IMG/VR virus record: IMGVR_UViG_3300028548_006009
Span: 1-25,959 of that record
Direction: 5' to 3' (one strand)
DNA: 25,959 bases
Source: a virus
Under the pieces are notes generated by a model. It worked only from the letters and a program-made list of their open reading frames with translations, had not been told where the DNA came from and made no database searches. Shown one piece after another: positions 1-17,150 of this stretch. The position numbers and the translations under genes are program-made. The first letter of the stretch is position 1. The number at the start of each line of letters is the position of its first letter.

Positions 1-773
1 GCAAAAAACATAACACCTTTTCTGTCTTTTGATTGCTCTATAACATCAGCCACAATTAAGCTGGTTTTTCTTCCTTTACCTTTATAGGCTCTATCAACAT
101 CATCTTTATTAAACTTGCCCATCTTGTTGACAGTCATTTTAATAGTGTCATAGTGAACACTGTTAATTGCACCTATTAATGGTGGTGCTAAATATTTTTG
201 GTCAATTAAATCTGGCGCACCTATTGTATAAACCTTTTTAACAAAATAAGCATTTTCACCTATTGCTTTATCTTCTTCATTCATCTGGTAAATGTACCCT
301 GTTCCCATCCTATAAGGTGTCGCAGTTGTACCAATGACTCTTAATTTTGGATTGCCTTCTTTTATCTTTTCAATAATAGCTTTTACTGTTGGCGTAATTA
401 AATCACATTCATCAATAATAACCGCACAGAATTTGCCACTAAATTGGTCGATAGAATTTAAAACCGTTAATGGTGTGCCGAAAACTACTGGATATTTTAA
501 GCATCTACCACCAGCAGAAGCACTAAAGACACTGGCGTCTTCTCCAGTTTGCAGGTATTTGCTGCGGTTTTGTTTTACAAGCTCTGCGCTAGGCGCTAGG
601 CATAAAACGTTTTTTCCTTTGCTTAATTCGTGCAGTATCTTTGCAACTTCTGCAATAATCATGCTTTTGCCCGCGCCAGTTGCAGCCTCCAAAATACAAC
701 TATCAGTTGATGCTTTTACATGGTCAATAATTTTGTCAACCGCTGTTTGTTGGTAAGCTCTTAGCTTGTACAT
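1..773 (-). CDS. SF2 (DEAD/DEAH-type, RadD/RecQ-like) DNA helicase, C-terminus outside window
   Basis: The first 257 residues are visible; the gene runs off the left edge. The start is the ATG at 773-771, three bases after the stop of the exonuclease gene. Motif Q-like LRAYQQ is near residue 4, Walker A ATGAGKS at about 31-37, motif Ia around LAPSAEL at 59-65, and a Walker B/motif II of the DECD form at 121-124, followed by a motif III-like GTTATP. This order is that of superfamily II helicases such as RadD/YejH, which translocate on DNA using ATP. It is the last visible gene of a minus-strand recombination operon, so a role in unwinding or branch processing during replication or recombination is inferred. 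The conserved C-terminal helicase motifs cannot be checked here. Confidence 0.88.
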   Translation of the reverse strand, partial: MYKLRAYQQTAVDKIIDHVKASTDSCILEAATGAGKSMIIAEVAKILHELSKGKNVLCLAPSAELVKQNRSKYLQTGEDASVFSASAGGRCLKYPVVFGTPLTVLNSIDQFSGKFCAVIIDECDLITPTVKAIIEKIKEGNPKLRVIGTTATPYRMGTGYIYQMNEEDKAIGENAYFVKKVYTIGAPDLIDQKYLAPPLIGAINSVHYDTIKMTVNKMGKFNKDDVDRAYKGKGRKTSLIVADVIEQSKDRKGVMFF

Positions 774-776
774 TTG

Positions 777-1367
777 TTAATCTAAATGTTTTGAATTATC
801 AAGCTCAGATAAATACAGCTTATAAAATGTTTTTAGTTTGGGCAGGGTTTCTTTGATAAAATCGTGATTAAGTGGTATTTCTTCTAATAACTCTGCGCCA
901 GAAGGTGTCCATTGATAAAAGTATGCTTTAATCCTGCCACTGCATAACATTTCATATTGCACCTGCGCATAATAATGTTGCTGCTGGCTTAAAAGTTTAA
1001 AGTTTTGTACGCTTTTGTCATTTCTTAATCTGTATGGACATTTTATTTCCACGATCCATTCATCGTCCACCAGTCCATCAGGTGAAGCGCCTAACCAATC
1101 TTCAAATTCGTGAAAACCTGTATGTTTTATATCCTTGCCAATTCTGAGCTTTAAATCTGCGGTTGCCATTGCTTCATAAAAGTTGCCATGCTCAGTCGCC
1201 ACGTTACCTTGAAAATCAGCTTTTAGCCCATGATAATCTCTGACCATGTCTCTTAAAACATCTTGCGGTGACGACCAATGATTCATATTTAAGATAGCCC
1301 CTATTCTGCTGCCAGTTATGCGGCCTTTTCTTTGGCTAAACCATGCTTTTGTTCCTTGCTTGTTCAT
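777..1367 (-). CDS. YqaJ-type (lambda-exonuclease-like) viral recombinase nuclease
   Basis: This 196-residue protein has the YqaJ pattern: RKGRITGSRIGAIL near residues 13-26, an E-H-G..(Y/F)E segment at about 59-65, ASPDGLV at 94-100 and VEIKC at 106-110. Catalytic residues of the PD-(D/E)XK fold are D97, E107 and K109. The family resects dsDNA ends 5'-3' to make ssDNA for single-strand annealing. A longer reading from an ATG at 1394 is possible, but the ATG at 1367 has a GGAG site eight bases upstream and lies beyond a terminator hairpin, so it is preferred. It follows the DUF669 and RecA-like ATPase genes, the usual partners in phage recombination modules. Confidence 0.92.
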   Translation of the reverse strand: MNKQGTKAWFSQRKGRITGSRIGAILNMNHWSSPQDVLRDMVRDYHGLKADFQGNVATEHGNFYEAMATADLKLRIGKDIKHTGFHEFEDWLGASPDGLVDDEWIVEIKCPYRLRNDKSVQNFKLLSQQQHYYAQVQYEMLCSGRIKAYFYQWTPSGAELLEEIPLNHDFIKETLPKLKTFYKLYLSELDNSKHLD

Positions 1368-1381
1368 AGTGTTCTCCGTAC

Positions 1382-1409
1382 AAAAAAGCCCCACCGGATG
1401 GCAGGGCTA
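1382..1409 (-). terminator. Rho-independent terminator/attenuator inside the recombination operon
   Basis: Read on the minus strand, a nine-pair stem (AGCCCTGCC with GGTGGGGCT, two G-T wobbles) closes on the loop ATCC and is followed by six T. It sits between the stop of the DUF669 gene (1424) and the start of the exonuclease gene (1367). It should cut transcription partly before the nuclease and helicase, giving more ssDNA-binding protein than nuclease. Confidence 0.8.
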
Positions 1410-1423
1410 TTTATTAAAGTGTA

Positions 1424-1921
1424 TTAAAAGTCGATGTCTTCATCTTGTTTTTTAGTCAACTTTACATCTTTTTTGCCTGATACCGCGCAGACCCAATTTC
1501 CTGAGCGTGTTTGCCCATCGTCGCCAGCCATCTCCCAAACTTGCAATTTAAGTATCATTTGCTTACCAGTTAATGACTTGGTAAGCATTGCATCATCTGG
1601 TTGCTCACCTGATTTTAGCATTTTACCACCGGCGTTATAGTCTATAGTCGCCAGCATCTTTTTGGCTTTATCAGCGGTCTTTTCATTGTCGTGCATAACC
1701 TTGATATTTTGAAATATTTTTCGGTTCGCGTACTCCTCAGGGACTAAAACTTGCCATTCAATTGCAATATAGTCTCCGTTGTACTGATTGTTAGCCCATG
1801 CTGCGTTCTCAACAACACAAAGAACATCAGTGTTATCAGGTATAGGCTGGAAATTGTTGCTTGCATCAAATGTGCTTTTAGATTCGATGGCCTCAGATGT
1901 ACTTGTTTCCCAGAAATTCAT
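1424..1921 (-). CDS. DUF669-family protein, probable ssDNA-binding protein
   Basis: The 165-residue protein matches the phage DUF669 pattern: an N-terminal F..IPDNTD segment, then a beta-rich core with WQVLVPEEYANRKIF and a mid-domain lysine-rich helix. The C-terminus is acidic and ends DEDIDF, like the protein-interaction tips of SSBs. DUF669 members usually lie beside RecA-like ATPases and YqaJ or Erf/RecT recombinases and are thought to bind ssDNA; biochemical function here is inferred. The ATG overlaps the stop of the ATPase gene by one base (TAATG), so translation is probably coupled. Confidence 0.85.
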   Translation of the reverse strand: MNFWETSTSEAIESKSTFDASNNFQPIPDNTDVLCVVENAAWANNQYNGDYIAIEWQVLVPEEYANRKIFQNIKVMHDNEKTADKAKKMLATIDYNAGGKMLKSGEQPDDAMLTKSLTGKQMILKLQVWEMAGDDGQTRSGNWVCAVSGKKDVKLTKKQDEDIDF

Positions 1922-2697
1922 TATTTTGTTCCTTTTTTATTAATATTTAAAGATGGTATGTATTGTTTCAACGGGTTAATACCTGTGGTCACTTCGATAT
2001 CTTCCGTTATTCCGTACCTGTTTTTGCTTACATTTGCAGCGGTCGCATAGGTTACTAATAGCCTAGTACCGTCGCTGCGCGCTTTTTTTCTGTCGCCGTC
2101 GCCCGTTGTAAAAGTTTGCAGCTTCATAAATCCTACTAAATCGCAATCATCCACATACGGCGCAACACTTCTCTTGTTCAAGCGCAAAGTGTATCTAGTG
2201 TAGGCATCTTGGTCTGGCAGTTCGATTGTTTCTGTGTCTGCATGACCTATAAAAACAATATGCATATTTTTATTTTCATTAAGCCAACCGCAAAACTTGC
2301 GGGTTCTGTGGTGCATTGCAGAAATTGCAAGAAATCCTGCACCGTATCCGCCGAGTGCTTGCGCAATAGAGGCTGGTTTTTTCGGGTCTGACTCCATGAC
2401 CGTTGTTGTAAACAGCCTGTCTAGCGCTGTTACACTGTCTATAATTAAAGTTTGGTAGTCATGGTCTTGTTGTATTAACGCCGTTAATTGAGCCCATAAG
2501 TCTTCACTGCTTTTTAAAACTGGCAAAGCATCTGGTCGTGACTCTAAAGGGATTGATTGAAGTCCGTCTTCTGCACGAATTACAATCGGTTTAGGAAAAG
2601 ATGCGGCTAGGCTTGTCTTGCCCAGACCCGCATCACCTAAAATAGTCGCCAGAACTGGCCTATCCTTAGGTTTTTCTATCTCATTTAATATACTCAT
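1921..2697 (-). CDS. RecA-like AAA ATPase (Sak4/AAA_24-type)
   Basis: This 258-residue single-domain P-loop NTPase has Walker A GDAGLGKTS at residues 21-29 and Walker B LIIDS at 84-88. Its size and layout fit phage Sak4/PF13479 ATPases, short RecA/Rad51-like proteins that work with an SSB in single-strand annealing or replication. The start chosen is the ATG at 2697, preceded by AAGGAA; an upstream extension to 2793 would run through the promoter region and has no good ribosome site. It is the first gene of the minus-strand recombination operon, with the minus promoter at 2742-2770 immediately upstream. Confidence 0.88.
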   Translation of the reverse strand: MSILNEIEKPKDRPVLATILGDAGLGKTSLAASFPKPIVIRAEDGLQSIPLESRPDALPVLKSSEDLWAQLTALIQQDHDYQTLIIDSVTALDRLFTTTVMESDPKKPASIAQALGGYGAGFLAISAMHHRTRKFCGWLNENKNMHIVFIGHADTETIELPDQDAYTRYTLRLNKRSVAPYVDDCDLVGFMKLQTFTTGDGDRKKARSDGTRLLVTYATAANVSKNRYGITEDIEVTTGINPLKQYIPSLNINKKGTK

Positions 2698-2736
2698 ATA
2701 ATTTCCTTCTTCATGGCGCTTTATTGCTAACCATGC

Positions 2737-2765
2737 TTTACAGTGTACGTGCATTGCGTTAATAT
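2737..2765 (+). promoter_or_regulatory. Rightward sigma70-type promoter for regulator and primase
   Basis: A -35 box TTTACA (2737-2742), a 17-base spacer and a -10 box TAATAT (2760-2765) point at the XRE regulator gene starting at 2800. The -35 is followed by GTGTA, making the short motif TACAGTGTA, which recurs near 5619. The element overlaps an opposing promoter almost completely. Confidence 0.7.
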
Positions 2766-2770
2766 GTAAA
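2742..2770 (-). promoter_or_regulatory. Leftward sigma70-type promoter for recombination operon
   Basis: On the minus strand a -35 box TTTACA (complement of 2765-2770), a 17-base spacer and a -10 box TACACT (complement of 2742-2747) precede the RecA-like ATPase gene. Its -35 abuts the -10 of the rightward promoter and its -10 abuts the other -35, so RNA polymerase could not occupy both at once. Confidence 0.6.
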
Positions 2771-2799
2771 CAGTTATTTATAAACGGGAGCAATATAAC

Positions 2800-2973
2800 A
2801 TGATGACAAGATTGGAAATGGTTAAAGAATTAAAGACACGCAACCTTAGCCAAGTTGCTAGGGATATATCTGTAACAAGGGTTTATCTTTCGCATTTAGC
2901 TAACGGCAAGAGGCCGCAAGTATCTTGGGAAATGGTAAAGAGAATCAGTGATTATTTAGAGGTGGACAAGTAA
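2800..2973 (+). CDS. Small XRE/Cro-like helix-turn-helix regulator (57 residues)
   Basis: The protein is almost entirely a Cro/C1-type HTH: a first helix from about residue 4, the LSQVARDISV turn region near 16-25, the recognition helix VTRVYLSHLANG at about 25-36, and a closing helix WEMVKRISDYL. A GGGAG site lies nine bases before the ATG. Its stop overlaps the primase start by one base (TAATG), so the regulator and primase are co-translated. It lies directly downstream of overlapping opposed promoters, where a Cro-like protein is expected to bind. The target site is inferred, not shown. Confidence 0.85.
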   Translation: MMTRLEMVKELKTRNLSQVARDISVTRVYLSHLANGKRPQVSWEMVKRISDYLEVDK

Positions 2974-5231
2974 TGCACAGGGATTTAATGTCTGCTGGTT
3001 ATCGGATATTTGGACTACATCCCATTGTCGACGGCAAGTGCGGTTGCAGAAATAAAGACTGTAAAGCAGTAGGTAAGCATCCTTTTGCAGCATCTTGGCA
3101 GCATACGCCCTTATGGAGTAACGATCAGATTCTAAAAATGGAAGAAGCAGGTCAGTTTACAACTGGCTATGGTGTGTTAGTAGATGGCTTGTTGGTTATT
3201 GATGTTGATGCTAGAAATGGTGGGGTTGATTCTTTTCAAAGACTACTGGAAGACATTCCATCTATTAAAGATGCAGGGCTAGTAGTAAACACTGGTAGTG
3301 GTGGTGGTTCACAGCACCTATATTACAAGGTCAGTAATGATTTAGCCTTGCAGGGCAAGCATGATAATTACAAAGGAATAGATTTTAAATCATCAGGCTT
3401 TGTTGTCGGTATCGGTTCGCAACATAAATCAGGTGGCAGCTATGAAATAGACAGTGGATCTATTGACAGCATTGGCGCAGCACCGCAAGAACTAATAGAA
3501 CTGCTCAAGAAGCAAGATAGGCGCAGGGTGTTATTAAATGATAAGCCTGTTGATATATCTAGTTCAGAGGTTGCCGATATGTTGAGCTACATTAACCCAG
3601 ATGTAGAATATGACGTCTGGGTTCGCATTGGTATGGCTATACACCACGTTATGAATGGCGATGGTTTTGCAACTTGGGATAAATGGAGTAGCGATGGAGA
3701 AAAATACAGCGCATCGGAAATGGATAGCAAATGGTTTTCCTTTGGAAAAACTTCAAACCCAGTTGGAATGGGAACACTATTGTATTACGCGGAACTGGCA
3801 GGTTATGAAGCACCTGTAGATTTTAGCTCTACAGATGAGGTTAGCCCAGAAGTTTTTATTGGTGATTTACCTTGCGATATTAGCGATGTAGACCTACTGA
3901 GACCGCCGGGGTTTGTTGGCTCATTAACTGCATGGGTTAATAATCAGTGTAGATACCCACGGGAAAATTTAGCCGTTGGCGCAGCGATATCAGCAATGGG
4001 TAATGTCATTGGTTTAAAATACACAGATGGCTATAGCGGTGCATCTAGCAATATGTTTACTTTTTGCGTAGCAGCATCAAGCACAGGGAAAGAAGCTGTT
4101 TTACAAGCTACATCGGATATTCATAGATTTGCAGGTATAGCTGGTGCTTGTCATGGAACTATTAAATCCGAGCAAGAAATAACACGCAATTTAATTCAGC
4201 ATCAGGCAGCCATCTATGTGCTAGATGAAGTTGGTATCTTGTTGCAAAAGATAAACAACGCATCAGTTAGGGGCGGCGCAAGTTACTTGGAAGGTGTGAT
4301 CGGTTTGCTAATGTCGGCATATAGTAAAAGCGACAGTTTTATGCCTTTATCCGGTGACGTTAGAAGGGATGCAGAGTCCTTACTTCTCAAAGAATTATCT
4401 AGCTGCACCGTTAAAATAGAAGAAAATGCGGACAAGAATGGCAAGTACAGTAAACGCAAGGAACAAGTAGAACACGCGCTGGAAAATCTATCAAGCGGTT
4501 TAGAACGACCGTTTTTATCATTGATTGGATACACTACGCCGACTACATTTGAAGATTTAGTTACAAAGTCAAGTATCAGCAACGGGTTCATTGGTAGGTC
4601 TATATTAATAAACGAGAGGGAAACAAATCCTCGCGCAAAAAGACGGTTCAAAAAAACGCCAATGGCCGACACCATGAAGAACACTTTATCCAATTTATAC
4701 AACGCCGGCAACTACGACAGTACAGCATCCCGCATAGAGTTTATTGGCGATAAAATAGTTATCCCCTCTGAAGAGGATGCGATGGACTTACTGGACAGTT
4801 GCTTAGATTGGATTGAAGAGTACGCCGAGCAGCACAAAGAGATGTCAGGCCTAGAGGCTGCTATACGTCGCGGGTTTGAGCAGATAGTAAAGATATCATT
4901 TATCCTAGCAACAGCTTCTGGTGTTAGAACTGTTCAGCATGTCAGGTGGGCACTAGCATTTGCTCATCGTGATATTAATGAGAAAACCATGCTTGCTTAT
5001 GCAAACGAGCATAAAGACAGTAAAAAAGATGGCGCAAAGGTCTTAACCGCTAGGATTTTGGCAAATATAGACCGCAAAACAGGCGTTACGGTGGCAACAT
5101 TAGCGAATAGGCTAAGAAAGTCCAGTTCTGACATAGAAAAAACACTAGGACTAATGGGGGATCAAGTTGTTTCAGTTGAAACAATTCATTCCCGCAATAA
5201 AACAACGTCAATTAAATACTTTACAAGGTAA
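2973..5231 (+). CDS. Prim-Pol primase fused to DUF3987-like helicase domain (first of two primases)
   Basis: This 752-residue protein begins with a cysteine cluster (C23, C25, C30, then GKHP at 34-37) and an archaeo-eukaryotic primase-polymerase core: DVD at 77-79, the S-x-H motif at H115, and the GIDFKSSG segment near 135-142. A PriCT-2-like linker follows at about 200-278. The C-terminal half resembles the DUF3987 ATPase domain, with a P-loop-like ASSTGKE at about 368-374 and Walker B VLDE at 416-419. The P-loop is unusual because Glu follows the lysine where Ser/Thr is expected. The family synthesises primers and unwinds DNA at phage origins. It is the terminal gene of the XRE-primase unit and is followed by a strong terminator. 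Confidence 0.85.
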   Translation: MHRDLMSAGYRIFGLHPIVDGKCGCRNKDCKAVGKHPFAASWQHTPLWSNDQILKMEEAGQFTTGYGVLVDGLLVIDVDARNGGVDSFQRLLEDIPSIKDAGLVVNTGSGGGSQHLYYKVSNDLALQGKHDNYKGIDFKSSGFVVGIGSQHKSGGSYEIDSGSIDSIGAAPQELIELLKKQDRRRVLLNDKPVDISSSEVADMLSYINPDVEYDVWVRIGMAIHHVMNGDGFATWDKWSSDGEKYSASEMDSKWFSFGKTSNPVGMGTLLYYAELAGYEAPVDFSSTDEVSPEVFIGDLPCDISDVDLLRPPGFVGSLTAWVNNQCRYPRENLAVGAAISAMGNVIGLKYTDGYSGASSNMFTFCVAASSTGKEAVLQATSDIHRFAGIAGACHGTIKSEQEITRNLIQHQAAIYVLDEVGILLQKINNASVRGGASYLEGVIGLLMSAYSKSDSFMPLSGDVRRDAESLLLKELSSCTVKIEENADKNGKYSKRKEQVEHALENLSSGLERPFLSLIGYTTPTTFEDLVTKSSISNGFIGRSILINERETNPRAKRRFKKTPMADTMKNTLSNLYNAGNYDSTASRIEFIGDKIVIPSEEDAMDLLDSCLDWIEEYAEQHKEMSGLEAAIRRGFEQIVKISFILATASGVRTVQHVRWALAFAHRDINEKTMLAYANEHKDSKKDGAKVLTARILANIDRKTGVTVATLANRLRKSSSDIEKTLGLMGDQVVSVETIHSRNKTTSIKYFTR

Positions 5232-5253
5232 TAGGATTTTGTTATTTATAAAG

Positions 5254-5283
5254 CGTGCCCTTTATGTAAGGGCGCGTTTTTTT
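5254..5283 (+). terminator. Rho-independent terminator after first primase
   Basis: A nine-pair stem (CGTGCCCTT with AAGGGCGCG, one wobble) closes on TATGT and is followed by seven T. It lies 22 bases after the primase stop and ends the regulator-primase transcript. Confidence 0.85.
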
Positions 5284-5744
5284 ATTAAATAGCTTAAAAT
5301 ATACGATCACAATAAACACTGTGTACTTTAAGCAAACACGTTATATATCAACGGTCAACAGTAGTTTTAAGGCAGAATAAAATACACACTGGTTGTATAC
5401 GCTTAAAGCTATACGCGCAAACGCTTACAAGCGACAAACGCTCAGAATATACATTTCACTTAAACTATTTTTTTAATTAAAAAATTAATAAGCCCTTACG
5501 GGCTTTTTTTATGACTAGTCAAAAATAGTATAGTATTTATAGTGTATTGTTTATTCTATTATATATATACTATATATATCAGTAACTTACCCCCAGGTGA
5601 TGATAACACACTTTAACTTTACAGTGTATATCCTTAGATTTATTTTCCCTGTCAATCGTTGACCTACCTAGTCATTTTAACGATATACAAGCGTGTATTG
5701 TTAGATAATTAAAATAAAGTTGTACACTTTGTTTTCTAATGTGT
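5284..5744. other. Non-coding region; candidate RNA gene and/or origin
   Basis: No convincing open frame exists on either strand for about 460 bases. The part before 5490 has no plus-strand ATG at all but ends in its own terminator (5490-5510). It carries short repeats: TATACGC twice (5396-5402, 5410-5416), a CGCTT-AC-AAGCG dyad near 5422-5433, and several AACGCT copies. Further right are a T6-AATT-A6 palindrome (5469-5484), an alternating TA tract (about 5560-5578) that would melt easily, a GTCAA-TCG-TTGAC dyad near 5656, and a TTTACAGTGTA copy near 5618 shared with the promoter at 2737. An unannotated transcript or a replication origin are both possible. Confidence 0.45.
5490..5510 (+). terminator. 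Second rho-independent terminator in the non-coding region
   Basis: The stem AAGCCC with GGGCTT closes on TTAC and runs into a further five T. There is no open reading frame between this and the terminator at 5254-5283, so it either terminates a non-coding RNA or acts as a back-up. The reverse strand also has a T-rich stretch after the stem, so it may work in both directions. Confidence 0.75.
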
Positions 5745-5755
5745 TACACTTTGTA
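5720..5755 (+). promoter_or_regulatory. Putative promoter with two TACACTTTGT direct repeats
   Basis: The 10-mer TACACTTTGT occurs at 5723-5732 and again at 5745-5754, 22 bases apart, about two helical turns. The second copy extends to TACACTTTGTA, a TACA-N3-TGTA inverted repeat like those in the four promoters further right. A -10 of TACACT (5745-5750) with a TTGTAC-like -35 near 5720 would keep the usual distance to the leader dyad at 5760, but the spacing is long and the boxes are poor. The small gene at 5798 is the target. Confidence 0.5.
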
Positions 5756-5759
5756 TCAA

Positions 5760-5777
5760 GTTAGCAATTTAGCTAAC
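5760..5777 (+). repeat. Leader inverted repeat, copy 1
   Basis: GTTAGC and GCTAAC arms flank AATTTA. It lies about 20 bases before the ribosome site of the 64-residue gene at 5798. The same 18 bases recur at 6042 and a covarying version at 6627. Confidence 0.75.
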
Positions 5778-5797
5778 TTAATAAAGGAATATTGATA

Positions 5798-5992
5798 ATG
5801 ATAAACGGTTGGTTAGTATCAGATATCACAATGACTACAGATAGTGAAGGCTTTATCAGCGCAGAACACAAATATCAAGGAGATTTAATAATTGATGGAT
5901 ATTATGACACTCAAGCAGATTGCAAACGAGATGCTGTTAATGTTTTAAAAGAAAAAAAAGAAGAACATGAAAGAGGGGAGTACTTATATTGA
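5798..5992 (+). CDS. Small unknown protein (64 residues)
   Basis: The family is not recognised. The protein is acidic overall with a Lys/Glu-rich C-terminal helix (KEKKEEHERG) and a W-L-V...H-K-Y-Q-G-D-L-I beta-like core; no membrane segment is visible. AAGGAA lies eight bases before the ATG at 5798; an upstream TTG at 5792 is in frame but too close to that site. It is the first of three small transcription units with related promoters and leaders, likely early phage genes. Confidence 0.65.
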   Translation: MINGWLVSDITMTTDSEGFISAEHKYQGDLIIDGYYDTQADCKRDAVNVLKEKKEEHERGEYLY

Positions 5993-6004
5993 ATCAAAAT
6001 AAAG

Positions 6005-6032
6005 TTGACACTAATACTACATAGTGTATAAT
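6005..6032 (+). promoter_or_regulatory. Consensus promoter with embedded TACA-N3-TGTA operator
   Basis: The -35 is TTGACA (6005-6010) and the -10 is TATAAT (6027-6032), both perfect, with a 16-base spacer. The spacer ends in TACATAGTGTA (6018-6028), whose last two bases are the start of the -10. The spacer is nearly identical to those of the promoters at 6590 and, more loosely, 17147 and 17679. Confidence 0.85.
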
Positions 6033-6041
6033 GTTTATTAA

Positions 6042-6059
6042 GTTAGCAATTTAGCTAAC
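6042..6059 (+). repeat. Leader inverted repeat, copy 2
   Basis: Identical to copy 1 (GTTAGC-AATTTA-GCTAAC). It starts ten bases after the -10 box, so the mRNA would begin within a few bases of this stem-loop. Confidence 0.8.
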
Positions 6060-6078
6060 GATTAAAAAGGTAAATAAA

Positions 6079-6546
6079 ATGAGAAACTTTGAAGAAGAAC
6101 TTTATCGTAAAATCAACGCTCTTGAAGTTAAGGTCGATGAATCGAATTTAAAATATACAGCCGTGGAAATTAATACTCACTGTGACCACATGGAAAAGCT
6201 ATCCACCGAGATGTTTGATACGACTCTAGATATTGTTGATCGCAAGGCATCGGCTAAACTTTGGAGAGCTTCTGGCGAAACAACTATAGGCGAAGATTTA
6301 GCTGGCTATAGAAATCAGTTGCTTCAAATTGAAATGCTGGAAGAATCATTGAAGCTCAACTTATTCGAGGTTACAACAAGATACTTGATCACTGACTCTA
6401 AAGATCTAATCAGTCCAGCGGGCTATCACTCTTCAGATCATGTATTTGTTCAGCCTACTAATATCGCTATTCAATCAGATAGCCTCAAAAATTTACCAAG
6501 CTGTAATGTCGACCTTCGAGCTTTCGATATGAACAATCTAGAATAG
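6079..6546 (+). CDS. Unknown phage protein (155 residues), N-terminal coiled coil likely
   Basis: The family is not recognised. The first about 110 residues are predicted mostly helical with heptad-like Leu/Ile spacing (EEELYRKINALEVKV and later LLQIEMLEESLKLNLFEV). The last 45 residues are Ser/Asp/Asn rich and less ordered. No signal peptide, membrane segment or catalytic motif is visible. AAAAAGG lies before the ATG. It is a single-gene unit between the promoter at 6005 and the hairpin at 6558. Confidence 0.75.
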   Translation: MRNFEEELYRKINALEVKVDESNLKYTAVEINTHCDHMEKLSTEMFDTTLDIVDRKASAKLWRASGETTIGEDLAGYRNQLLQIEMLEESLKLNLFEVTTRYLITDSKDLISPAGYHSSDHVFVQPTNIAIQSDSLKNLPSCNVDLRAFDMNNLE

Positions 6547-6557
6547 TAACTTCGTCT

Positions 6558-6575
6558 AGCCCCTTCGGGGGCTTT
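6558..6575 (+). terminator. Hairpin terminator with UUCG loop
   Basis: AGCCCC and GGGGCT pair across a TTCG loop. Only three T follow, so termination may be partial. It lies 12 bases after the preceding stop codon and just before the next promoter. Confidence 0.65.
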
Positions 6576-6589
6576 ACCTAAAAATAAAG

Positions 6590-6617
6590 TTGACATTAGT
6601 ACTACATACTGTATAAT
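6590..6617 (+). promoter_or_regulatory. Consensus promoter with embedded TACA-N3-TGTA operator
   Basis: TTGACA (6590-6595), 16-base spacer, TATAAT (6612-6617). TACATACTGTA (6603-6613) abuts the -10. It differs from the 6005 promoter at only a few spacer positions. Confidence 0.85.
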
Positions 6618-6626
6618 GTTTATTAA

Positions 6627-6644
6627 GTTAGTAATTTAACTAAC
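6627..6644 (+). repeat. Leader inverted repeat, copy 3, with compensatory change
   Basis: GTTAGT and ACTAAC arms flank the same AATTTA loop. Relative to copies 1 and 2 both arms change together (C-G to T-A at the innermost pair), which keeps the dyad. It again begins ten bases after the -10. Confidence 0.8.
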
Positions 6645-6671
6645 TTAATAACGAACACAAGGATAATTAAA

Positions 6672-7001
6672 ATGGAAAAATTATATTCAATAGAAGAATC
6701 TTACTCAATCGAGACAGAAGGTCACGTAGACGGATTAGGCTGGATATTAATTCAGTTTAATTTGGTAGTAGAACCCGCTGAAGATGGTGGTTGTGTATGG
6801 CACGAAAATGCACATCCATCATGCGCTGAACATCACGAGTACAATGATGTCTTTGTTAAACTAGAACGCTCTCACAATTGGTTCACTGTATCTGAAAAGA
6901 ATCAAAAAAGAATGCAAGAGTTACTTACAATTGCTGCCGATGAGCACTTGGAAGATGTAAGGAGTTCTAGTTATGAGCCAGAGGGAGCTTATGAATATTA
7001 A
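6672..7001 (+). CDS. Unknown acidic phage protein (109 residues)
   Basis: The family is not recognised. It is rich in Glu/Asp and His, with a cluster of C-x-W-H-E-N-A-H-P-S-C-A-E-H-H near residues 41-55 that could bind a metal; that is inference only. There is no membrane segment. AAGGATAATTAAA precedes the ATG. It leads a three-gene unit with the next two overlapping genes. Confidence 0.7.
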   Translation: MEKLYSIEESYSIETEGHVDGLGWILIQFNLVVEPAEDGGCVWHENAHPSCAEHHEYNDVFVKLERSHNWFTVSEKNQKRMQELLTIAADEHLEDVRSSSYEPEGAYEY

Positions 7002-7155
7002 TGAAGAACGAATCGTTAAGCTACAAAAGTTAATGACACAGTTAGAGGTATTAGATGTTTGGGATAGTTACGACCACCAAATATATGACTTCTACAAGTA
7101 TGAACTAAAAACATTACTTTATAAACAAGGTGGAGCTAAAGATGAAAATATCTAG
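6973..7155 (+). CDS. Unknown small protein (60 residues)
   Basis: The family is not recognised; helical and charged throughout. An AAGGAG site eight bases before the ATG at 6973 supports this start even though it overlaps the upstream gene by 29 bases. An internal ATG at 6991 also has a GGGAG, but with a very short gap. It overlaps the next gene by 14 bases. Confidence 0.6.
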   Translation: MSQRELMNINEERIVKLQKLMTQLEVLDVWDSYDHQIYDFYKYELKTLLYKQGGAKDENI

Positions 7156-8130: not shown

Positions 8131-9323
8131 TAATCTCTCCTCATGTCGGGTTCATTCTTAGGTTTCTCAATCTCATAAATCAACGTCGAATGTCTACCCC
8201 CTGACTTTCTAAAGGTAATCATTTCCATGACAGCACTTGACCCATATCCATGCTCAGCATGGTAGGAATCTGAAGGAGCTAATGTTCCAAACTTTTGAAC
8301 GATGCAACCATCCAATTCTAAAGTGTTCTGGTGATGCCAATGTCCCAAACACCACATTCTGTAAGTGCATCTACCCCAAGCCGTTGGCATATCTCTTGCC
8401 ATTACTGAAACAAGTTTTTGTGGCTTAATTTTATTGCCATGATTGATACCCAATAAGTTCTTTCCAAATTCTAAATAATGGAAAAACCCTTCTGTTGGAA
8501 GAACGCTCACTCTTGGCTCATTTTTATAATAAAATTCCAGTAACAGGCTCACTGCTTGTGCACTATCTAAATTATGATTCCCACGAGCCACGACCACTAT
8601 GACCTTGCTGAACTTCTCAAGCATACGGTCTATACTGTAAGACATAATTGATGCGCTTGTTCTTAGCGTCGTTCCGTACTTTGTGTCAACATCTAATTGT
8701 GTCCCTGAAAAAGTCTGTCCCTTAGAATTGTCAGCGTGCATAAAATCACCCACATCCACCAGCAATCCAATCTCTGAATTGGGTGCTCTTGAAACTAAAT
8801 TATCAACAGCCCCTCTCAACATTCCAGCCGATAGCTCTGTTGAATTTTCGCTTCCCCTCGTGTCACTACTAAAAGAACGAGCACCGACATGAGCATCACC
8901 AATAAAGATACTGCTCATCAATTCATCGTCGGTATCTTTGCTGTGTATAGGTTTAGGGTTGGCTGGGTCAAAGTTACAAAGACTTTCAGCGTACTCTTGC
9001 AGCAGCTGACTCTCTTGTTCTTTCTCCATGCTGGTCTTGACCCATTGGATCTTAATGTTTCCAGCCTCATCATAAAGAATTGACTTGCCTTTGATAAGAT
9101 AGCTATTGTCAACAGACTCAGTCGAACCGTCACCATGAGTGATTGTCTTTTGAGCAGCTCTGTCTCTTAATATTTTGAGAACCCTTCTTCCATAAGCACC
9201 ATCTATTGCTGAGTCCCTCCACGCTTTATTCTTTTTTCCTCCAGACTTTTTTAAAGCATCCAGCACATCACCTTGTCTTGCCGTAGTGCAGAACTCCCTG
9301 AGATACTCATAATCATCACTCAT
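8130..9323 (-). CDS. Calcineurin-like metallophosphoesterase
   Basis: This 397-residue protein has the metal-binding motifs in order: GDAHVG (D143, H145), VGDFMHADN (D193), ARGNHN (N249, H250), INHG (H295) and GHWHH (H328, H330). The first about 130 residues are an added N-terminal region with a helix-turn-helix-like start (IDGAYGRRVLKILRD). The family hydrolyses phosphomono- or diesters, including SbcD/Mre11 nucleases, but no SbcC partner is visible. Its position in a small regulatory operon leaves the substrate open: DNA, RNA or a nucleotide signal. AAGGATTAATA precedes the ATG. Confidence 0.9.
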   Translation of the reverse strand: MSDDYEYLREFCTTARQGDVLDALKKSGGKKNKAWRDSAIDGAYGRRVLKILRDRAAQKTITHGDGSTESVDNSYLIKGKSILYDEAGNIKIQWVKTSMEKEQESQLLQEYAESLCNFDPANPKPIHSKDTDDELMSSIFIGDAHVGARSFSSDTRGSENSTELSAGMLRGAVDNLVSRAPNSEIGLLVDVGDFMHADNSKGQTFSGTQLDVDTKYGTTLRTSASIMSYSIDRMLEKFSKVIVVVARGNHNLDSAQAVSLLLEFYYKNEPRVSVLPTEGFFHYLEFGKNLLGINHGNKIKPQKLVSVMARDMPTAWGRCTYRMWCLGHWHHQNTLELDGCIVQKFGTLAPSDSYHAEHGYGSSAVMEMITFRKSGGRHSTLIYEIEKPKNEPDMRRD

Positions 9324-9561: not shown

Positions 9562-9773
9562 GGTTACAACAAAAGGTTACAACAACCTTATTTTTATCTG
9601 TCATCAAATCAAATTAAAATATTATTTTATTTTACCAACAAAATAAAATAACCACTATATTGTTGTAACTTGTAACCTTTTATATATAAGTAGTTAATAA
9701 ATATAATAAAAAGTAGGTTACAACAAAGGTTACAACAAAGGTTACAATAAGCCTAAATTAGCTTGTTGTAACC
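9562..9773. repeat. Iteron-like array of GGTTACAAC; candidate replication origin
   Basis: Plus-orientation copies of GGTTACAAC are at 9562-9570, 9575-9583, 9716-9724, 9728-9736 and 9740-9748 (last base T). The last three are exactly 12 bases apart. Inverted copies are at 9662-9670 and 9669-9677 (one mismatch each) and a perfect one at 9765-9773 inside the 3' end of the primase gene. Between the groups is an A+T-only hairpin and other AT-rich DNA. Repeats at fixed spacing beside a primase-helicase gene and easily melted DNA are the hallmark of an iteron origin; binding by the nearby primase or HTH protein is inference. Confidence 0.75.
9622..9651. repeat. Perfect 12-bp A+T inverted repeat within the iteron region
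   Basis: TTATTTTATTTT and AAAATAAAATAA flank ACCAAC. Neither strand has a T-run after the stem, so it is not a standard terminator. It is a good candidate for the unwinding element or cruciform of an origin. Confidence 0.7.
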
Positions 9774-12059
9774 AAATTCACTCCTTATTTCGTCATTAGT
9801 TAAAAAAGTTTTAGTCCAAACTCGACGAGCAGTACCATCAATCTTGACTACACCTTGTTGGCTGTAACCCATCTTTTTGAATAAATAATTAGCATCTCGA
9901 TTACTAAGTGGACCAACATCAAGCTCAATTGCTTCTCTAAATTCAGAGCTTGAAAAGACTTTAACGGTCCACCATTTACCTCCATCAACTAACATTTGTT
10001 CGGCCTCATGCTGACCATCAGTCATCGCTTTTTCTGTCTCAATTACTGAGCGCTTAGAGTTATTCATTGGAGCGACGCCGTCAAATCCAGCGGGAATATC
10101 TATACTTTCAAGCCAAGCTCTCATAGCCCCACCGTCTCGAATTGCTTCAAATAGTTTAGTAAAATAACCATGACCCATCTTATGAGCTGTTGCAAATGAC
10201 ACCCACCATCTTCTGTCGTGATGATTTTGAATAGGAACAGAGTCTCTAAAATTACTAAATACTAAATAGTTAGTCACATTGCGAACAACGTATGGCTTCA
10301 AGCCTTTATTGTTTATCTCAATGTCAGGGTCGGTAAACAATGGCTTAAGCGCATTGGCCACATCGAATCGGTTGTGACCTGTCAGCTTTAATTCCTGTAG
10401 AACGTTAACGGCTACACCTTCTGCCCAGCCGTTAAAGCTAGACTTAATAGTGTTGGGTGAAACTAGGCCAACATTCATGGCACCCATAGCTGACTTTAAT
10501 AGCTCTCCAAAGAAAGACTTACCGATGCCTTCATCACCTACAAGCAAGGGGGACCATCTAACAAGTTCACCGCATCGCTGAACTTGCCACGCTAACCATT
10601 GCAGGAAGACAACAGAATCTGCCTTACCAATAAGCCCTATTAAATGGTCAGTTATTATTTGTTCTGCTACAGGGTCTCTTTTACCAGCAGCTGGAACTAA
10701 GTCAGCACGGTAGGTATTTAAACAGTCACCTACTATCCTATCGGCTTCTGTAGGTATGTACTCAAGCCTATTTAATATAGAAATAAATCCGCCATCAGCA
10801 ACAGCTTGAGAGGCTGATTGTTTGGACCCGTTATCGCTGGCGGGTATTTGTATGCCACATTTAAGATTGAATGATGCAGCGCTGTAGCCCGTCATTGTGT
10901 TCAGATTTATGTACTGATTATGCGATAAGACGAACACCCAATGATTGCACCACTCAGGTCTAGCAGTAGCAGTCGTTAATGCGGAGGATGTAATCAACCG
11001 TCTAACATCAGCAATAGGGACTGGAACGCCGGTGAAACCTTTTAGCATGTTCTTCATGAGCGCGGCTAGTGTGTTCCTTTCTAGCGCATCAATGTTTGTT
11101 TCTTTTATCTCACCAGCCAATACCATCACGGCTTGTTCGCTGTCACATTCGTCAAGCCGATCTCTAAAAGACGGAGCTTTCCAACCCGCTTCTTTGGCTA
11201 GGTATATAATGGTACCGACAGATACACGAACGCCATCCTTTTCAAATGAACGCCAACGTTTTCTTGTCTCACCTTTCTTATAACTGACACCACCTTTACT
11301 CCATGCTTCCCAAATTTCTAACCCTTCATCTGCGTCCCAATCGTAAAGACACATACCTATTTTTGCCCAATAGTCGTTGTCGGAGTTGTTATCGAGAACG
11401 CTCAGGTAAGACTCAAGTTGAAGACGAGTAACCGCGTCGTATTGATTATCTATTAAACCGTCAAAATCTCCCAAGTCATCGTCGGTAACTACAGCCGCCG
11501 AGCTTCCGACCTCTACCCAAGTCGAAGGAACTTCTATTGCAGCCATCCATGCTTTAACTTTGTCAAAGTTTAGACTCTTTAACTCATGAGTCTCTAAGTC
11601 TTCCAATGACTCACCAGTCCAAATGTAATCCTTGCCAGTGTCTGGATGCTTACCAAATGCGGCGAACTGTTGGCCCTTGCCTAGCAATTCAAAACCATGC
11701 ACGACACCATCGGCATCACGCCACGAACGTTTTAGTTTAGTCTGACCTTCAACGCCTCTGTATACGAGTAGCTGCTTTGGAGCCTGACCGATGCGAACAG
11801 GAGCGCCGCCGAACTGTTCTATAAAAGATTTGACAACAACAGCCGAAACATCGGCGTCATAAAAGTCAAAGTCAGCGGCGTAAACAGAACCACAACGAAC
11901 GCCAATGTTCATAGCACCTTTACCGTTCAAGGACCACTTGCTTATTAAGTCTTCGGTTATCTCAATGTCTTGCCAATTAGAAACTACTGGTCGCTTACCA
12001 TCTATAGGTATGACCTCAAATCCGTTATTAAATAAAGTAGAAGCTAATTGTTTGTACAT
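9753..12059 (-). CDS. Second Prim-Pol primase fused to SF3-like helicase (DUF5906/VirE-type)
   Basis: This 768-residue protein has a Prim-Pol core with DFD at 63-65, a KQLLVYR strand near 95-101 and GKGQQFAAFGKHP near 127-139, then a PriCT-2-like domain at about 213-293. The helicase half contains QWLAWQVQR, Walker A GDEGIGKS (508-515) and later YLVFSN..D..P and DRRWW motifs, as in NrS-1-like phage primase-helicases. Such proteins prime and unwind DNA at a phage origin. It starts at the ATG at 12059 with AAAAGG upstream. Its 3' end contains one of the GGTTACAAC repeats and abuts the array, consistent with origin recognition. Confidence 0.88.
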   Translation of the reverse strand: MYKQLASTLFNNGFEVIPIDGKRPVVSNWQDIEITEDLISKWSLNGKGAMNIGVRCGSVYAADFDFYDADVSAVVVKSFIEQFGGAPVRIGQAPKQLLVYRGVEGQTKLKRSWRDADGVVHGFELLGKGQQFAAFGKHPDTGKDYIWTGESLEDLETHELKSLNFDKVKAWMAAIEVPSTWVEVGSSAAVVTDDDLGDFDGLIDNQYDAVTRLQLESYLSVLDNNSDNDYWAKIGMCLYDWDADEGLEIWEAWSKGGVSYKKGETRKRWRSFEKDGVRVSVGTIIYLAKEAGWKAPSFRDRLDECDSEQAVMVLAGEIKETNIDALERNTLAALMKNMLKGFTGVPVPIADVRRLITSSALTTATARPEWCNHWVFVLSHNQYINLNTMTGYSAASFNLKCGIQIPASDNGSKQSASQAVADGGFISILNRLEYIPTEADRIVGDCLNTYRADLVPAAGKRDPVAEQIITDHLIGLIGKADSVVFLQWLAWQVQRCGELVRWSPLLVGDEGIGKSFFGELLKSAMGAMNVGLVSPNTIKSSFNGWAEGVAVNVLQELKLTGHNRFDVANALKPLFTDPDIEINNKGLKPYVVRNVTNYLVFSNFRDSVPIQNHHDRRWWVSFATAHKMGHGYFTKLFEAIRDGGAMRAWLESIDIPAGFDGVAPMNNSKRSVIETEKAMTDGQHEAEQMLVDGGKWWTVKVFSSSEFREAIELDVGPLSNRDANYLFKKMGYSQQGVVKIDGTARRVWTKTFLTNDEIRSEFGYNKLI

Positions 12060-15874: not shown

Positions 15875-17150
15875 ATATCAACTAAAAGCTGTTGAGTTTA
15901 TTAAAAAGAAAAAGCGAGTAGCGCTACTTCTTTCGATGGGCTTGGGTAAAACAGTTTCAACATTAACGGCTATATCTGATTTAAATGTTCGAGTTTTAAT
16001 TGTAGCTCCATTGCGAGTTGCCAACACTGTTTGGAAACAAGAAGCAGAAAAGTGGGAACATTTAAATCATTTAGATATCGGCATTGCAACAGGAACTGCT
16101 GCACAGAGACGAGAAGCATTTAGTCATGACATTGTAGTTATCAATCGAGAAAACATCGCATGGATGATGGCCAATATAGCTCCTAAATTTGACATGCTAG
16201 TTGTTGACGAAAGTAGCTCGTTTAAATCAGCAAAGTCTGCTCGTTTTAAAGCGCTGAAAAAATTAGAAGTTGAGTACTGTGTGCTATTAACTGGCACTGT
16301 CTCGCCATCAGGTTTAATGGACCTTTGGTCTCAATATTTTCTTTTGGACCGAGGTCACAGATTAGGCAGAACCATTACTGCATTTAGAAATAGATTTTTT
16401 AGGCAGGGTGGCTTCGGCGGTTATCAGTATGAGATACGAAAAGGTAGCGCCGACATTATTCACAATCTTGTAAAAGATATCTCTTTATCAATGGCAGCTG
16501 AAGATTATTTAGATATGCCCGACAAAATAAATTTAACGCAAGCAATAGAGCTGCCAGAAGATGTTCAGGAAAAATACACGACCATTCAAAATGAATTTGT
16601 TTTAGCCATCAATGACGATGAGATATCTATCTTATCAGCAGCGAGTTTAAGCAATAAACTACTGCAAATGGGCAACGGATTTATTTACACCGAAGAAGGT
16701 GAACCTATTTATCTACACGATGCAAAAATAGATGCTCTGTCAGAAATAATAAACGACAACACTGGCGATAATATATTAGTCTTTTATAATTTCAAAGCTG
16801 ACCTTGAGCGTTTACAATCTAAGTTTAAGCAAGGTGTTGTTTTAGATAAAAAGAATAAAGCAATAGACGAATGGAATAAGGGCAATATACCATTGTTATT
16901 TGCGCAACCAGCAAGCGCTTCAATGGGCATTAATCTGCAAAAAGGAGGTAACATTATTGTGTGGTATGGCCTCACTTGGAATTTAGAACATTATCAGCAA
17001 GGAAACGCCAGACTACATCGCCAAGGGCAAGATAGCTCAGTTACTGTGATGCATCTTGTTGTTAAAGGCGGCATTGATGAAAAAATAATGCTGGCACTAA
17101 CTGGCAAAGCTAAAACACAACAAGACCTGCTCGACTTTTTAAGGGCTTGA
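15861..17150 (+). CDS. SNF2-family DNA helicase/translocase
   Basis: The 429-residue protein has Walker A SMGLGKT at 25-31, motif II DESS at 116-119, motif III LLTGTVSPSG, and in the C-lobe ASASMGINLQKG and QGNARLHRQGQ (motifs V and VI). This is the phage SNF2 type. It is paired with VRR-NUC and the polymerase; a role in fork or branch remodelling is inferred. Its stop codon lies within the -35 box of the next promoter. Confidence 0.93.
   Translation: MKLHKYQLKAVEFIKKKKRVALLLSMGLGKTVSTLTAISDLNVRVLIVAPLRVANTVWKQEAEKWEHLNHLDIGIATGTAAQRREAFSHDIVVINRENIAWMMANIAPKFDMLVVDESSSFKSAKSARFKALKKLEVEYCVLLTGTVSPSGLMDLWSQYFLLDRGHRLGRTITAFRNRFFRQGGFGGYQYEIRKGSADIIHNLVKDISLSMAAEDYLDMPDKINLTQAIELPEDVQEKYTTIQNEFVLAINDDEISILSAASLSNKLLQMGNGFIYTEEGEPIYLHDAKIDALSEIINDNTGDNILVFYNFKADLERLQSKFKQGVVLDKKNKAIDEWNKGNIPLLFAQPASASMGINLQKGGNIIVWYGLTWNLEHYQQGNARLHRQGQDSSVTVMHLVVKGGIDEKIMLALTGKAKTQQDLLDFLRA

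Follow-up and report, generated by a model that had tools for sequence, protein, structure and literature searches.

How should a short inverted repeat be read when it recurs directly behind several phage promoters? The stretch of DNA analyzed here, a 25,959-base viral record (the window), contains three perfect dyads of the form GTTAGY-AATTTA-RCTAAC, all on the + strand and each ahead of a small ORF. A preliminary description had placed them at 5760, 6042, and 6627 and offered three options: a stabilizing hairpin at the 5' end of the mRNA, a translation-control element, or a second operator at +1. From comparison of the sequence with relatives and with unrelated phages, we put the probability that the dyad encodes an RNA hairpin at the 5' terminus of the transcript at roughly 0.8.

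Three dyads within a repeated cassette

The exact dyads lie at 5760-5777, 6042-6059, and 6627-6644, as first described, and their number is far beyond chance. With up to three mismatches allowed, the window holds five dyad matches where 0.22 would be expected, a count not attained in any of 100 shuffles. An inverted repeat with 6-nt arms, a 6-nt loop, and an outer 5-mer recurring three times was likewise found in none of 200 dinucleotide shuffles (shuffle maximum, two). A chance origin was therefore ruled out by both tests. The innermost pair is C-G in copies 1 and 2 and T-A in copy 3, which confirms the earlier reading that both arms had changed. The description of the arms needs extending, since copies 1 and 3 are longer than stated: the arms are 8 bp in copy 1, only 6 bp in copy 2, and 8 bp in copy 3 counted from its predicted +1 (as DNA, copy 3 is a 13-bp dyad, 6620-6651). 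The elements are as follows, where R1 is a covariance model described below.

5742..5750, + strand: putative copy 1 promoter, extended -10 TGtTACACT with a poor -35, degenerate relative to copies 2 and 3 (read from sequence)
5758..5779, + strand: copy 1 predicted hairpin AAGTTAGC-AATTTA-GCTAACTT; predicted +1 at 5758; MFE -9.2 kcal/mol; R1 E 1.1e-5
5798..5992, + strand: small gene 1, 64 aa from ATG, Shine-Dalgarno AAAGGAA; no Pfam or PHROG match
6005..6032, + strand: putative copy 2 promoter, TTGACA-16-TATAAT, 12/12 consensus match
6042..6059, + strand: copy 2 predicted hairpin GTTAGC-AATTTA-GCTAAC, 6 bp only; predicted +1 at 6040; MFE -7.4 kcal/mol; weak R1 match, E 0.036
6079..6546, + strand: small gene 2, 155 aa; no known family found
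6558..6575, + strand: terminator-like hairpin AGCCCC-TTCG-GGGGCT, 3' of gene 2 (read from sequence)
6590..6617, + strand: putative copy 3 promoter, TTGACA-16-TATAAT, 12/12 consensus match
6625..6646, + strand: copy 3 predicted hairpin AAGTTAGT-AATTTA-ACTAACTT; predicted +1 at 6625; MFE -7.0 kcal/mol; R1 E 2.5e-4
6672..7001, + strand: small gene 3, 109 aa; no known family found

The arrangement is a repeated cassette of putative promoter, predicted hairpin, and gene, carried by three neighboring small genes.

Promoter spacing and predicted leaders

AAGTTAG begins 8 nt past the -10 hexamer in all three window copies, a 7-nt spacing that holds for copy 1 when measured from its extended -10 (5742-5750), and the distance from -10 to hairpin is constant in 10 of 10 leaders of the window's family. 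In copies 2 and 3, the first G of GTTAG is the 10th base past the -10, in agreement with the preliminary description. At the place of the degenerate copy 1 promoter, the relative L141 has a consensus TTGACA/TATAAT promoter ahead of the same gene. Based on the usual discriminator length and the preference for a purine, the RNA is predicted to start at the A of AAGTTAG, that is, at 5758, 6040, and 6625. The spacer between -35 and -10 at 6005-6032 (CTAATACTACATAGTG) is nearly invariant across the family, and copy 2 also carries ACACTA-N8-TAGTGT, possibly a separate operator.

Leaders taken from the predicted +1 are predicted to form, at 37 °C, stems of 8, 6, and 8 bp capped by 6-nt loops (-9.2, -7.4, and -7.0 kcal/mol for copies 1-3; z -2.8 to -3.4), leaving the Shine-Dalgarno sequence and the AUG unpaired; at 15 °C the predicted energies are about -12 to -15 kcal/mol. 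Copy 2 has two unpaired bases at its predicted 5' end. No fold (0 kcal/mol) is predicted for the leaders behind the promoters at 17147 and 17679, where the dyad is indeed missing, as had been noted.

Several other identities were considered. An intrinsic terminator was rejected because no U-tract follows the hairpin, and neither a tRNA nor an Rfam family was found; an Rfam search of 5500-7100 gave no family above its gathering score and one chance-level match of 13.7 bits, away from the hairpins. Searching the leaders against phage and plasmid records by blastn returned only short, weak matches to AT-rich sequence. A bacterial origin was rejected as well, in that AAGTTAGYAATNNNRCTAACTT matched 16 times in 84,980 genomes and never behind an obvious -10. 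The promoters of the N4 virion RNA polymerase are DNA hairpins upstream of +1, with a 5-7 bp stem and a 3-nt loop, used by a phage RNA polymerase. The window resembles N4 in having a hairpin associated with phage promoters; however, the promoters here are of sigma-70 type and the loop is 6 nt and downstream of a consensus -10, and this identity was rejected too.

Conservation among relatives of the window

DNA scans located the promoter-hairpin cassette in four relatives, L108 (two copies), L112, L139, and L141 (three copies, ahead of the same three genes as in the window), and in contigs near-identical to parts of the window. Two further scans, with the cassette tail and with the promoter core, added no members to these. 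The loop AATTTA is invariant in 10 of 10 family leaders, and the inner 6 bp are unbroken throughout. The window has C-G as its innermost pair at gene positions 1 and 2, where L141 has U-A; at position 3 both have U-A. Between these orthologous sites, therefore, both arms changed together. Outer pairs are not conserved: copy 2 ends GCTAACGA, copy 2 of L141 ends ACTAACTA, and L108 has C.C. Change in one arm alone, which the preliminary description had named as evidence against a conserved dyad, was thus seen in these leaders but outside the core only. In-family covariation was not significant by most measures (six distinct sequences), a weakness that follows from a single core pair varying within the family.

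Homology between the window and its relatives starts or ends at cassette edges (window 5707 and 6579), so the cassette behaves like a module boundary. L123 and L124 are ∼99% identical to window 1-6579 and then pass into another genome where the window's cassette 3 begins, and the homology of L141 begins at cassette 1 (5707). These breaks at cassette starts, together with the L108 cassette that precedes a different second gene, could indicate that promoter and leader were merely spread by recombination between modules, with a functionless hairpin as by-product. We consider this improbable, because the two arms vary in concert at matching gene positions, because copy 1 keeps its hairpin and spacing despite a diverged promoter, and because covariation is present in unrelated phages.

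The same layout in unrelated large phages

All viral contigs were searched for AAGTTAG-N8-CTAACTTA. Most sites were chance occurrences, and yet TATANT lay exactly 6 nt upstream in 8 of 81 distinct non-family sites, compared with 0-1 at other distances. Six of the eight belong to one large-phage group (records of 98, 176, and 372 kb), and L214 and L225 are separate; in L222, the distance is 8 nt. A broad scan with TATAMT-N6-7-AAGTTARYAAT gave mostly chance matches, of which L312 and L318 alone looked real. About 25 promoters with a hairpin at the same place were found in unrelated phage contigs (up to 372 kb), some of them chosen for hairpin-forming ability, which inflates pairing but not the fixed spacing, unselected in the 8/81 count.

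The large phages have many small genes, each with its own promoter, and a subset of these has the hairpin directly behind the -10. Hairpin starts near promoter-like sites concentrate 4-9 nt past the -10 (26, 20, and 14 starts). No such excess was present in ∼240 viral loci taken essentially at random, which hold 212 promoter-like sites, nor was a +1 hairpin found in Pseudoalteromonas phages AL and PHS21, Vibrio phage LP.1, or 50 kb of T4; AL, PHS21, and LP.1 are the nearest named phages and have a replication module in common with the window. The element is thus limited to particular phages, and a general feature of phage promoters was rejected.

Across 18 distinct hairpins, two-sided changes occur at 8 of 9 pairs, a result seen in none of 500 shuffles and lost when the pairing was slid by one position. 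The inner six pairs contain no unpaired cells, and the four one-sided changes among them are all G.U wobbles. Among the large-phage variants, AGTTAAGC-AATAAC-GCTTAACT has one base pair inserted on both arms; others are GTGTTAAGC-AATAAC-GTTTAACAC, TGTAGC-AATATT-GCTACG, and forms with one-sided G.U changes. The covariation check suggested for homologous leaders thus gave a weak answer within the family, where one core pair varies, and a strong one in unrelated phages.

The covariance model R1 was built from unrelated phages only. It recovers all three window copies (E 1.1e-5 for copy 1, 2.5e-4 for copy 3, and 0.036 for copy 2), and the five best matches in the window all fall on the three dyad sites, two of which match in either orientation; the highest scores come from the sense (+) strand. 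Within the large records, the higher-scoring R1 matches group in one gene cluster and on one strand (G001, 11.7-18.4 kb; G002, 172.0-175.7 kb; G004, 364.3-369.2 kb), nearly all with TATANT 3-7 nt upstream.

The covariation in unrelated phages and the recovery of the window copies by R1 favor an RNA hairpin over a DNA operator at +1. An operator would be bound by a dimeric regulator controlling the three promoters, for example the phage's 57-aa Cro/C1-type protein (2800-2973), whose HTH gene lies 3 kb upstream of the dyads. The 13-bp arms of copy 3 as DNA would suit such a regulator, and the change from C-G to T-A preserves DNA symmetry as well. In the unrelated phages, however, the changes are not uniformly symmetric and a strand preference is evident: one-sided G.U wobble changes break DNA symmetry, and the hairpins lie in sense orientation immediately behind -10 elements, with an asymmetric loop read in that direction. 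Moreover, no dyad occurs near the HTH gene; HTH homologs are present in L125, L126, and L129, fetched loci without a dyad, and the L108 contig has the dyad without the HTH gene (these being partial contigs). We regard an operator as quite unlikely.

An effect on transcription start or promoter escape, through the initial sequence or DNA melting and not through the fate of the RNA, appears very improbable. In the large phages, AAGTTA begins some hairpin-free leaders too, so that selection for initiation may act on these opening bases, but such an effect needs neither a complementary 3' arm 14 bases on nor compensatory changes.

Some side observations concern other leaders. In the large phages (L247, L248, and L249) there are two adjacent promoter types, a AAAGTTCTTTACAAACC-type without a hairpin and a TTGC/TTTAC-type with a +1 hairpin, and some of their hairpin-free leaders nonetheless begin AAGTTAAAC. 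At L252 3960-4020 (G006 ∼8960-9020), leader hairpins occur in tandem, with stems GTAAGTTGAT/ATCGACTTAC and ACATAAGC/GCTTATGT, the second having the same AATGAC loop as another hairpin of that phage. L133 2117-2170 has a similar -35 and spacer (TTGACAGTAGTACTACATA) with a different hairpin, CTTGC-ATGAC-GCAAG, right behind the -10. The idea that hairpin leaders of the large phages lack a Shine-Dalgarno sequence, counted by eye, was unconvincing.

Loop conservation and possible translation control

The loops begin with AA in all cases, mostly AAU, and their 3' half differs between phages. Since no unpaired part varies less than the AAU at the loop's 5' side, it is possible, though unlikely, that a phage or host factor recognizes it and co-regulates these mRNAs, or that the element controls translation. 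The large-phage group retains AAUAAC while its stems change, L252 places AAUGAC on two different stems, and the RNA operator recognized by T4 gp43 has a -UAAC- loop (PMC3014915). Against this, loops differ from phage to phage and, within a single phage, from gene to gene (AAUGUU, AAGCAA, AAAACA, and AAUAGU), the hairpin and the ribosome site do not overlap, and no candidate loop-binding protein was found. The T4 gene 43 operator is likewise a hairpin before a start codon, and the AAUAAC loops of the large phages resemble its loop; the T4 element, however, covers the ribosome site and is bound by the gene's own product, whereas the hairpins here lie at the predicted +1, off the ribosome site (PMC3014915). 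Among the three options first offered, then, the RNA hairpin is favored by the relatives and the unrelated phages, the operator is disfavored, and translation control is possible.

A proposed role in mRNA protection

For the RNA 5'-terminal hairpin, protection of the mRNA is the likeliest role, which, by analogy with known leaders, we hold at slightly better than even odds. Each cassette would run from a sigma-70-type promoter through a hairpin that starts at about +1 to a Shine-Dalgarno sequence and an ORF, and the transcript would begin pppAAGUUAGY-AAUUUA-RCUAAC with at most about two unpaired 5' bases. With the hairpin at the transcript start, the 5' end would be paired once out of RNA polymerase, denying access to an RppH-type pyrophosphohydrolase and to the RNase E 5' sensor; the ribosome site farther along would stay open. 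We infer that transcripts start at the A of AAGTTAG, fold in vivo, and have a longer lifetime. RppH and RNase E require single-stranded 5' ends and are hindered by a stem at the 5' terminus (PMC3997798). The predicted hairpins of the window have an anatomy suited to such a role, being placed at the predicted +1 and off the ribosome site, with gene 2 followed by the terminator-like hairpin.

Two known systems are close in design. As summarized in PMC3997798, which cites Emory 1992 and Bricker 1999, the E. coli ompA and papA mRNAs carry 5'-terminal stem-loops; the likeness lies in a stem-loop placed at the 5' end or close to it, with few unpaired bases before it, a free ribosome site, and an effect on lifetime (here predicted). 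The window element differs in its phage origin and in that one sequence is repeated before several genes as a promoter cassette. T4 gene 32 mRNA, according to Gorski 1985 and Loayza 1991 as cited in PMC8948821, is stabilized by a 5' leader hairpin and is likewise a phage mRNA. The T4 hairpin has a CUUCGG loop and serves one gene, whereas here AAUUUA loops precede three genes at a predicted +1. A limited open-access literature search turned up no description of a repeated phage cassette of this type, which is weak evidence of novelty.

If the reading is true, some phages give every gene in a block of small genes a standard cassette of promoter and protective hairpin, and unrelated phages bear nearly the same hairpin at the same place. 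The element would then give a sequence-searchable handle on message protection and co-regulation in phages, as well as a compact natural 5' element. Descent, transfer, or convergence may each account for a hairpin common to the window and the large phages. More speculatively, and rather doubtfully, AAGUUAGY-AAUNNN-RCUAACUU may be a recurrent 5' hairpin tag that unrelated phages carry at the +1 of an entire set of small genes, gained by each on its own or through exchange among them. A conserved factor of host or phage origin (a decay enzyme or a loop-binding protein) would read the tag, which would in this way mark and co-regulate one class of phage mRNA.

Other features of the window

This one phage encodes two Prim-Pol/PriCT-2 primases that differ from each other, both in the window. 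One (2973-5231, + strand) adjoins genes for a YqaJ nuclease and AAA_24, and the other (9753-12059, - strand) adjoins those for DUF2800, an Enc34 ssDNA-binding protein, a DNA polymerase, and an SNF2 helicase. The region 5290-5700 is AT-rich and intergenic, with many short GTATA/ACACT repeats and inverted repeats, and is possibly a replication origin.
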